From Methanobacteriota archaeon (GTDB taxonomy: Archaea; Thermoplasmatota; Thermoplasmata; Thermoplasmatales; ARK-15), in contig WSBC01000004.1 in the NCBI GenBank assembly GCA_009758405.1, positions 178,634 through 242,633 of the forward strand: a DNA stretch of 64,000 bases, read 5' to 3'. The notes beneath the pieces were generated by a model. The model saw nothing but the letters and a program-made list of their open reading frames with translations, was not told where the DNA came from and did no database searches. Within the stretch, counting starts at the first letter, position 1; the number at the start of each line of letters is the position of its first letter. The position numbers and the translations under genes were made by a program. Of this stretch, positions 53,598 through 55,861 are shown piece by piece.

Positions 53598-54161
53598 ATG
53601 CTTCCAGATATTAGGGATATAAAAAATATGAGGAAAAGGGCTGGTATAACTCAGAAAGAGCTTGCAAATTTAACTGGATTGAGTCAATCTTATATTGCAA
53701 GGGTAGAAAGTGGTGATTTAAATCCAACATATGATAATGTAAAGAAAATTTTTGCTATACTTGAGGAGCAGATAAGTAAAAGGGAAGGAGAGGAATTGAG
53801 AGCTAATGATATAATGACCAGGGAGATTTTTTCAGTGGATGCCAACGATCCTCTTGAGAAGGCAATGAGAATACTGCTAGAAAAGGGTTTTTCCCAGCTA
53901 CCCGTTTTTGACAATGGCATTCTCGTTGGTAGTATTACAGACAGTAAAATAGGACAGAAGATTGCAAATGGTATTACTCCGGTGGAAATGAGGAAGCTTA
54001 GGGTAAGGGATTTTATGGATGAACCTTTTCCACAAGTTCCTGAAAATTCGCCCATTAAAATTGTATCATATCTTTTGAAAAATTATCCTGCAGTTCTTGT
54101 AACCAGTAAGGGGAAGGTAACTGGAATAATTACAAAATCTGATCTACTAAAAATACTTTAA
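53598..54161 (+). CDS. XRE-type HTH regulator with CBS domain pair
   Basis: In these 187 residues an N-terminal helix-turn-helix (~10-60: MRKRAGITQKELANLTGLSQSYIARVESGDLNPTYDN) is fused to two CBS motifs (~70-187: ANDIMTREIFSVDANDPLEKAMRILLEKGFSQLPVFD, then VRDFMDEPFPQVPEN to the C-terminus). This is the COG3620-type archaeal architecture, with CBS pairs usually binding adenosyl ligands such as AMP, ATP or SAM. The target genes are unknown. It is transcribed just before tRNA-Leu. Confidence 0.9.
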   Translation: MLPDIRDIKNMRKRAGITQKELANLTGLSQSYIARVESGDLNPTYDNVKKIFAILEEQISKREGEELRANDIMTREIFSVDANDPLEKAMRILLEKGFSQLPVFDNGILVGSITDSKIGQKIANGITPVEMRKLRVRDFMDEPFPQVPENSPIKIVSYLLKNYPAVLVTSKGKVTGIITKSDLLKIL

Positions 54162-54190: not shown

Positions 54191-54274
54191 GCGGAGGTTA
54201 CCGAGCCTGGTCAAAGGTGCGAGATTCAGGGTCTCGTCCTTAGTGGTTCGCCGGTTCAAATCCGGCCCTCCGCA
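54191..54274 (+). tRNA. tRNA-Leu(CAG)
   Basis: A class II tRNA: acceptor GCGGAGG/CCTCCGC, anticodon arm CGAGA-TTCAGGG-TCTCG giving CAG, long variable arm, T-loop TTCAAAT and discriminator A. CCA is not encoded. The 3' end is two bases from the alaX start codon. Confidence 0.92.
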
Positions 54275-54276
54275 CT

Positions 54277-54918
54277 ATGTCCACAATAAAACTCTATTGG
54301 ATCGACCCTTACATGAAGGTATTTATGGCAAAGGTGGTGGGTATAGAGGAAAATTATCTCATTTTGGATCAATCAGCATTTTATCCACAGGGTGGTGGAC
54401 AAGTGGGGGATACAGGTAAAATAAACGAAATAAGGGTATTAAACACTATAAAAAAGGATGATACAATTTATCATGAAATGGAGGATATCTCACCATTCTC
54501 CGTTGAGATGGAGGTAAAGGGTGAGATCAATTGGGAAAGAAGATATATGATAATGAGACATCACTCAGCCTCACATATAGTTGAATATTTCATAATCAAG
54601 AACTTCCCCTGGGTAAGGCCATATTCCTCGGGACTAGTGGATGAAAAGAAGGACAGGCAGGATTATTTAACAGAAATACCCTTTAAGGAGGAGGATTTAA
54701 AAATTGTTGAGGATCAGGTGAATTCATTTATTTTAGAGGATCATGAGATAAAAACATGGACAGATGAAAATGGAATTAGACACTGGGTATGTGAATTCAT
54801 AGAGATGAAATGTTCAGGAACCCATGTAAAAAGGACAGGGGAAATTGGAAGAATAAAGATTGCAAAGGGTAAAAAACCTGGAAGGGGAAGGGAAAGGATT
54901 GAAACATGGGTTATTTAA
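54277..54918 (+). CDS. alaX: Alanyl-tRNA editing protein AlaX
   Basis: This 213-residue trans-editing hydrolase of the AlaX-M type clears mischarged Ser- or Gly-tRNA-Ala. The N-terminal barrel has FYPQGGGQVGDTG. The zinc site is HHSASH (H-x3-H) and CSGTH (C-x3-H) near residue 185. The ATG lies only two bases after the tRNA-Leu 3' end, with no ribosome site of its own inside the tRNA. After tRNA 3' processing the mRNA would therefore be leaderless. Confidence 0.93.
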   Translation: MSTIKLYWIDPYMKVFMAKVVGIEENYLILDQSAFYPQGGGQVGDTGKINEIRVLNTIKKDDTIYHEMEDISPFSVEMEVKGEINWERRYMIMRHHSASHIVEYFIIKNFPWVRPYSSGLVDEKKDRQDYLTEIPFKEEDLKIVEDQVNSFILEDHEIKTWTDENGIRHWVCEFIEMKCSGTHVKRTGEIGRIKIAKGKKPGRGRERIETWVI

Positions 54919-55861
54919 GAAAATAGCCTTCAACGGTATCCATAATAAAACTTGCCAGATTTCTTGGGTTCATGAAGTTGGATGTTTCGGCATGAAGATA
55001 AAGAAAACATTCCCTTTTGCAAGATTTCATCATATTTCTGCCCTTTTCAGCCTCTTCACTTGAGAGAATTGTTTCAAGATCATTTTCAATTAAATTTCCT
55101 ACTTTTTTACCAATTACACTGCAGGGATATATCACATCCCCGTTGGATTCAATAGAAAGACCGTAGGAATGGCATGTGTAATGGTTCTCAAGCGCATTTA
55201 TGAAAGCCCTGCTTGTGACAATTGTACCTCCAAATTCTTTCTTTAATTCAACAAGCGTATCATGCATTAATTTCCTATCTGGTGTAAGATCTGGAACATC
55301 ATCAAAATGCACAGCTGGCATTATTAATATTCTTGCACCCGCCCTATATACCTTTTCAACCTTTTCTCTTAACGCCCCAATATCATTCTTTGTTACCACT
55401 GTTTGAACAGTTATTCTTATTCCAGAATCGACATATTTTTTAAGATCGTCCAAGATATAAAGATTTCCATGACCTTCATCTATAGATATGTGAATAAAAT
55501 CAACATACTTTGAAAATTCTTTAAGAGGGGCCTTTGGAAGAAGTATTCCATTTGTTGTAAAAAAAAGATAGAATGATCTTTCGTATGCATGCTTCACTAT
55601 TTCAAGCAAATCTTTTCTTAATAATGGCTCGCCCCCCTCCAATGATAGTACCGTAACTGTTGAATCAGCGAGTCTATCGATCACCCTCATAGCACCATTT
55701 GTATCCAGTGCCTTCATTGGAGTTTTCCAAACATTGCAAAAAGGACATCTTAAATTGCATTCATGAAGAAGTTTGTATGATCCATAAACTGGTCTTTCGA
55801 AATCCTTGTTAAGGAGAGTATCCATAAACCATTTAAAGGCTCTTAAAGTTCTATCCATCAA
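54911..55861 (-). CDS. Radical SAM protein, SPASM-like
   Basis: This 316-residue protein has the radical SAM cluster motif CNLRCPFC near residue 34, SAM-binding LEGGEPLLR, and barrel strands TTNGILLP and FIHISIDEG. The C-terminal region has several cysteines (YPCSV around residue 250, then CKREC), possibly a second Fe-S cluster as in SPASM/twitch proteins. The product is unknown, and no short peptide precursor or partner gene is adjacent. It converges on alaX with an 8-base overlap. Confidence 0.85.
   Translation of the reverse strand: MMDRTLRAFKWFMDTLLNKDFERPVYGSYKLLHECNLRCPFCNVWKTPMKALDTNGAMRVIDRLADSTVTVLSLEGGEPLLRKDLLEIVKHAYERSFYLFFTTNGILLPKAPLKEFSKYVDFIHISIDEGHGNLYILDDLKKYVDSGIRITVQTVVTKNDIGALREKVEKVYRAGARILIMPAVHFDDVPDLTPDRKLMHDTLVELKKEFGGTIVTSRAFINALENHYTCHSYGLSIESNGDVIYPCSVIGKKVGNLIENDLETILSSEEAEKGRNMMKSCKRECFLYLHAETSNFMNPRNLASFIMDTVEGYFLK

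Follow-up and report, generated by a model that had tools for sequence, protein, structure and literature searches.

In mitochondrial tRNA punctuation, RNase P and ELAC2/RNase Z free the mammalian mt-mRNAs, which are leaderless or nearly so. The mRNAs made in this way carry a 5′ monophosphate, and archaeal leaderless mRNAs are described as bearing a 5′ triphosphate, in a source that also gives leaderless translation as widely used in Thermoplasma (PMC7531240). The term leaderless is used here in the archaeal sense of a 5′ UTR of at most 5–8 nt. Production of neighbouring small RNAs by tRNA excision is known in plants and Nanoarchaeum, and the tRNA-Val/sRNA8 precursor of Nanoarchaeum equitans is split by RNase Z (PMC3491384). 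These dicistronic tRNA–C/D sRNA precursors resemble the locus described below in that an RNase Z cut is proposed to generate the start of the RNA that follows; however, the downstream RNA is small and non-coding in N. equitans, whereas a protein-coding mRNA would follow the tRNA here (PMC3491384). Co-transcription of a tRNA or tRNA half with a downstream protein gene is a second point of likeness: a tRNA-Lys lies inside the 5′ UTR of TK0306 in Thermococcus kodakarensis (PMC4247193) and a tRNA-His half precedes valyl-tRNA synthetase in N. equitans (PMC3491384), but leader lengths differ, and the accessible text of these two sources does not state that a leaderless mRNA arises by tRNA excision. 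For Haloferax, three further papers report that tRNase Z acts also on 5S rRNA 5′ ends (PMC7714728), that engineered tRNA-like elements can be used to free RNAs whose ends are defined (PMC4946936) and that 13 of 52 tRNA genes lack a proximal start site in dRNA-seq, an observation put down there to operons, long leaders or technical loss (PMC4983044). The literature searched, outside which most subscription journals lie, yielded no account of archaeal protein-coding mRNAs made leaderless by RNase Z, and as far as these searches show it does not describe a conserved group of archaeal protein genes that lack promoters and start 2–6 nt past tRNAs.

The window, the whole stretch of 64,000 nucleotides that was analysed, belongs to the draft genome of an archaeon (G000; 34 contigs totalling 1.30 Mb), where it covers C20:178634–242633. 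It was compared with two congeners, G001 and G002, all three members of the genus being draft genomes. The locus consists of the following features.

53598–54161, + strand, upstream ORF of 187 aa with HTH_3 and two CBS domains (ORF call and domain search)
54150–54161, + strand, BRE/TATA-like motif AAAATACTTTAA (AT-rich to 54165), candidate promoter of tRNA and alaX (learned-motif scan)
54191–54274, + strand, tRNA-Leu(CAG), without intron and without encoded CCA (ARAGORN, Infernal RF00005 and sequence)
54275–54276, + strand, two-base spacer CT (C54275, T54276), with the predicted RNase Z cut at 54274/54275 (sequence)
54277–54918, + strand, alaX, AlaX-M-like alanyl-tRNA editing protein of 213 aa with HSASH and CSGTH metal motifs

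The abutment of tRNA-Leu(CAG) and alaX is confirmed. A first-pass annotation of this DNA had placed two bases between the tRNA discriminator and the alaX ATG, and the sequence, ARAGORN, Infernal and the ORF call agree on this spacing; its coordinates were likewise right, including 54275 as the first base past the tRNA. With the acceptor stem GCGGAGG/CCTCCGC complete at 54273, A54274 is the discriminator, and the Infernal RF00005 match (G000:C20:232824–232907) corresponds to window positions 54191–54274; ARAGORN ends at 54275, the following C being counted into a CCA-like tail. Both programs describe a class II tRNA with a Leu anticodon and an intact cloverleaf, the sole Leu-CAG gene found in the G000 assembly. 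A gap of 29 nt separates the tRNA from the stop of the HTH–CBS ORF in G000, the end of which is overlapped by the motif AAAATACTTTAA, 41 nt before the tRNA. The corresponding tRNA of G002 (L169, G002:C26:31660–31744) begins 4 nt past the HTH–CBS stop. On the other side the tRNA abuts the coding sequence with no room for a leader or promoter, an arrangement expected of tRNA punctuation, and a fold predicted for one isolated strand of the junction forms the acceptor and T stems and leaves the ATG outside the tRNA fold.

A longer leader from a different start codon, which the first-pass annotation had considered, is not seen: the alaX frame stays open for 11 codons upstream, into the tRNA, and these codons contain no in-frame ATG, GTG or TTG, so that the ATG at 54277–54279, exactly two bases past the discriminator, is the first possible start. 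The AlaX N-termini of the three congeners (MSTIKLYW, MPTRKLYW and MITEKLYW) align from residue 1, and no Shine–Dalgarno sequence was found before the alaX ATG. Proteins of the AlaX editing domain family carry the metal motifs HxxxH and CxxxH, and the AlaX substrate is tRNA-Ala, not tRNA-Leu. In the window protein HSASH and CSGTH were read by eye as these metal motifs, and Pfam tRNA_SAD (PF07973) is above its cut-off. The resemblance to the solved AlaX-M structures 2e1b and 9iuw is near full-length (E = 1e-31 and 5.3e-33), but the protein reaches only 152.4 bits against NCBIfam AlaXM (NF040865), below the curated 300-bit cut-off, and is therefore called AlaX-like only. A second AlaX-type protein of G000 (230 aa, 272 bits) is closer to AlaXM than the window protein; in place of the cysteine motif CSGTHV of the window protein, this second AlaXM-like ORF (L325, G000:C27) and its G001 counterpart (L326) have QADGGTHV, and the metal site of the second protein may differ. 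The 3′ end of alaX is overlapped by 8 bases by a radical SAM ORF on the opposite strand (54911–55861, − strand), which is similar to the PTO1314 family at 104 bits against a cut-off of 306.

The order HTH–CBS ORF, tRNA-Leu(CAG), alaX is common to all three genus genomes. Conservation of the spacing, put forward as a check in the first-pass annotation, holds for one relative and fails for the other. In the nearest relative, G001 (Aciduliprofundum sp. ARK-15 MAG; AlaX 76% identical), the tRNA sequence is identical to that of G000 and the spacer is again 2 nt, with TC instead of CT, whereas in G002 (AlaX 63% identical) 47 nt lie between the tRNA and the alaX ATG. Within the G002 spacer, 36 nt ahead of the ATG, lies a promoter-like motif, and the motif scan found none at the usual distance before the G002 tRNA; in this genome alaX thus seems to stand alone, with the tRNA apparently relying on the upstream ORF. 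Since this is the reverse of the window genome, promoter use appears to have been rewired within the genus, and any coupling of alaX to the tRNA is not obligatory. Between G000 and G001, codon positions 1 and 2 of alaX are 85–86% identical and third positions 52%. The retention of a 2-nt spacer despite this third-position divergence, together with the number of tRNA genes so arranged in G000 (see below), suggests that the layout exceeds chance. An illustration of a chance ATG is provided by tRNA-Leu(CAA) (L148), where an ATG two bases downstream opens a frame of only 10 codons and is not kept in G001.

Promoter signals were scored along the abutting loci with a BRE plus TATA-like motif derived from 111 regions preceding tRNAs in the three congeners; this motif mostly starts 37–39 nt before the tRNAs of the genus. 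At −41 of tRNA-Leu(CAG) it scores 1.8 (96.5th percentile of the window scores in G000), and the same place in G001 scores 3.7 (98.5th percentile); most tRNA promoters of the genus are stronger than this. The tRNAs preceding the archease and Sua5 genes described below have the motif at −37 to −40 at the 99.6th percentile and higher, and the tRNA preceding SAM_HAT has it off position only (−15 and −21). Upstream of the alaX ATG, no promoter-like motif was found at −42 to −22, where the best match lies at the 68th percentile in both G000 and G001, in agreement with the first-pass proposal of expression without a separate promoter. The same region of all scored ORFs with spacers of 2–6 nt is likewise devoid of the motif (62nd–75th percentile). 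Of 28 genes in the window that have 50 nt or more of upstream sequence, 13 have a motif score above 3 at −44 to −28 and four a Shine–Dalgarno-like stretch; leaderless or short-leader starts therefore look common in the window. Two other scans were set aside: a sigma-70 model gave 19 sites against 17.0 expected and is not meaningful for an archaeon, and T-rich terminators did not serve as a clear discriminator, runs of at least five T in the first 30 nt occurring after 3 of 11 tRNAs with an abutting ORF versus 24 of 72 without an ORF within 100 nt.

These data bear on the possibility that an alaX promoter lies inside the tRNA gene and gives an ordinary leaderless mRNA that bears its 5′ triphosphate at or near the ATG, the abutment reflecting genome compactness. 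Such an arrangement would fit the seemingly frequent leaderless starts in the window that have a motif near −35, the promoter-like motif in the G002 spacer and the generally compact packing of genes. However, the 68th-percentile match before alaX and the equally poor matches before the other closely spaced ORFs speak against it, as does the region itself, whose GC-rich sequence is constrained by the function of the tRNA. A promoter hidden inside the tRNA was accordingly rejected for lack of a learned-motif match at promoter distance; the sequence argues against a promoter belonging to alaX itself, at which a 5′ triphosphate would arise by initiation, and this explanation is considered distinctly improbable.

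The preferred reading, to which a probability of roughly 0.65 is assigned, is that alaX is co-transcribed with tRNA-Leu(CAG) and that an RNase Z cut yields a near-leaderless 5′-monophosphate mRNA that is then translated. The tRNA and alaX would form one transcription unit, with transcription beginning at a promoter ahead of the tRNA or from farther upstream; RNase Z would cut after A54274, maturing the tRNA, at a position predicted from the established behaviour of archaeal RNase Z; and the downstream product, 5′-P-CU-AUG, would be translated by the leaderless route, so that tRNA 3′ processing would replace a separate alaX promoter and leader. From the sequence we infer co-transcription, cleavage, the 5′ monophosphate and translation of the product alike. 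An RNase Z is encoded in G000 (TIGR02651, 333 bits, cut-off 292.95; G000:C1:203701–204588), and the enzyme is above the curated cut-off in five of five family genomes. A CCA in the trailer blocks RNase Z, but this block does not apply here because the alaX trailer starts with CUA. Counting against the preferred reading, a 5′-monophosphate mRNA could be unstable, and the candidate tRNA promoter in G000 reaches only the percentile given above. The uncoupled alaX of G002, the generally tight packing of ORFs against tRNAs and the T-run counts weigh in the same direction. If the reading is correct, leaderless mRNAs made by tRNA excision carry a monophosphate and need no promoter of their own, protein output is tied to tRNA transcription and RNase Z, and the locus is the equivalent, in a prokaryotic cell, of mitochondrial tRNA punctuation. 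It would share with the mitochondrial system the origin of the mRNA 5′ end in tRNA excision, here predicted from DNA, but would differ in that it concerns only a minority of genes and occurs in a cellular archaeon, the remaining genes of which have promoters of their own.

It is also conceivable that the trailer, instead of being cut precisely by RNase Z, is removed by other nucleases and that alaX is poorly expressed, or is translated from uncut RNA or from an internal ATG at 54313 or 54325, the latter of which is preceded by AGGT. An internal start is difficult to reconcile with the residues KLYW.DPY, which precede these codons and are common to the congeners, with matches of relatives that mostly begin at query residues 1–7 and with the codon constraint noted above, which spans the ORF; this set of explanations is thought very unlikely.

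The co-transcription and cleavage reading gains support from the recurrence of the layout. With tRNA positions taken from Infernal and ORF starts set by rule rather than by a gene caller, ORFs of at least 100 aa start 0–6 nt after the discriminator at 4/43 tRNAs in G000, 4/26 in G001 and 2/36 in G002, and at 1/24, 0/35 and 3/37 in G003, G004 and G005; these counts exclude tRNAs less than 330 nt from a contig end (which retains 26 of 41 in G001) and use 39 of 41 Infernal matches in G002, two partial ones being omitted. The four abutting ORFs of G000, at 2–6 nt, are alaX and the first member of each of the following series.

Archease (PF01951) after tRNA-Arg(CCT), spacers of 6, 6, 6 and 3 nt in G000, G001, G002 and G003
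Sua5/YrdC-type protein (PF01300) after tRNA-Asn(GTT), spacers of 3, 3 and 4 nt in G000, G001 and G002, and 53 nt in G004
SAM hydroxide adenosyltransferase (SAM_HAT, PF01887) after tRNA-Thr(GGT), spacers of 4 and 4 nt in G000 and G001, and 15 nt in G003

The Sua5-like ORF starts with GTG, GTG and TTG in G000, G001 and G002 and scores 114 bits against threonylcarbamoyladenylate synthase TIGR00057, below the cut-off of 123. Starts within 6 nt of a tRNA were found for 14 of 201 co-directional downstream ORFs versus 0 of 216 divergent ORFs at the tRNA 5′ end, a comparison in which congener orthologues are counted repeatedly and the control is weak, since divergent genes need promoter space anyway. 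ORF stops abutting tRNAs were rejected as evidence of co-transcription, convergent (23/201) and co-directional (26/216) ORFs ending within 6 nt at similar rates; abutment on the stop side is ordinary packing, and tight packing is general. Across the order, 4 of 30 archease loci and 3 of 30 Sua5 loci have a tRNA at most 60 nt upstream, 30 of each having been examined among matches in 83 (archease) and 102 (Sua5) of 117 genomes, and these two pairs are therefore family-level traits.

A survey of the phylum used one T-loop pattern in 61 genomes, 45 of which gave a match; the pattern misses tRNAs with other T-loops, so its counts are not prevalence figures. After removal of duplicates, 83 of the 106 pattern places read lie inside an ARAGORN tRNA and 23 outside any. 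An ORF of at least 80 aa starts 0–6 nt downstream of 20 of the 83 distinct tRNAs, and a Pfam family was assigned to 15 of these 20 ORFs (12/17 plus 3/3). A TtuA-like gene abuts tRNA-Leu(TAA) in G005 and G006, and archease directly follows tRNA-Met(CAT) in the distant G119. PriL abuts a tRNA in G005 and G006, called Asp and His, respectively, by ARAGORN; the G005 tRNA is absent from the Infernal list and was found by the pattern search. Further abutting families are ThiF (G118 and G135), RpoH (G140), prephenate dehydratase (G099) and undecaprenyl diphosphate synthase (G129), and several GC-rich abutting ORFs without a family (L347, L346 and L378) may be due to chance. Enzymes acting on tRNA recur among the abutting ORFs but are far from exclusive.

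A possible addition to the preferred reading is that the coupling was selected as regulation, with tRNA maturation capacity setting the supply of AlaX, archease, Sua5-like and TtuA-like proteins. Three of the four abutting ORFs in G000 belong to tRNA-enzyme families, and the TtuA-like genes of G005 and G006 and the archease of G119 extend the pattern. The pattern was noticed post hoc in a small sample, however, and other abutting ORFs have no link to tRNA (SAM_HAT, PriL, prephenate dehydratase, RpoH, UppS, DUF47 and Rce1-like); the AlaX substrate differs from the adjacent tRNA, and the order-wide archease and Sua5 frequencies are low. Selection for regulation is thus regarded as doubtful. The first-pass interpretation as a whole receives partial support from the sequence. 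The tie between expression of a tRNA-quality enzyme and tRNA maturation proposed in the first-pass annotation is suggestive only: archease, Sua5-like and TtuA-like genes abut tRNAs as well, but AlaX acts on tRNA-Ala and G002 is uncoupled, and a regulatory tie of alaX is possible but unproven. The broader proposition, that archaea of this phylum regularly use tRNA punctuation to make mRNAs of promoterless genes, in a set enriched in tRNA enzymes that links maturation to enzyme supply, is tentative and at present rather unlikely.

Several other features of tRNA borders were observed. In several genomes of the same class (family f8; L346, L385, L389, L391, L395, L355 and L356), tRNA 3′ ends repeatedly read TTCAGGCCCGCCATG, GCCAATG or GCTGATG, which suggests a conserved neighbour; the L346 ORF, after a tRNA-Lys, has no Pfam match. 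Eight of 37 tRNA trailers in G005 share the sequence AAGCCCCTTTCTTA within their first 16 nt (L285, L286, L288, L290, L293, L295, L302 and L304), perhaps as a tRNA terminator or processing element. At L063 (G000), L088 (G001) and L046 (G003) a co-directional upstream ORF enters the tRNA and uses as its stop a TAG at tRNA positions 8–10; at a similar-looking place in G002 (L120) the ORF ends with TAA just before the tRNA.
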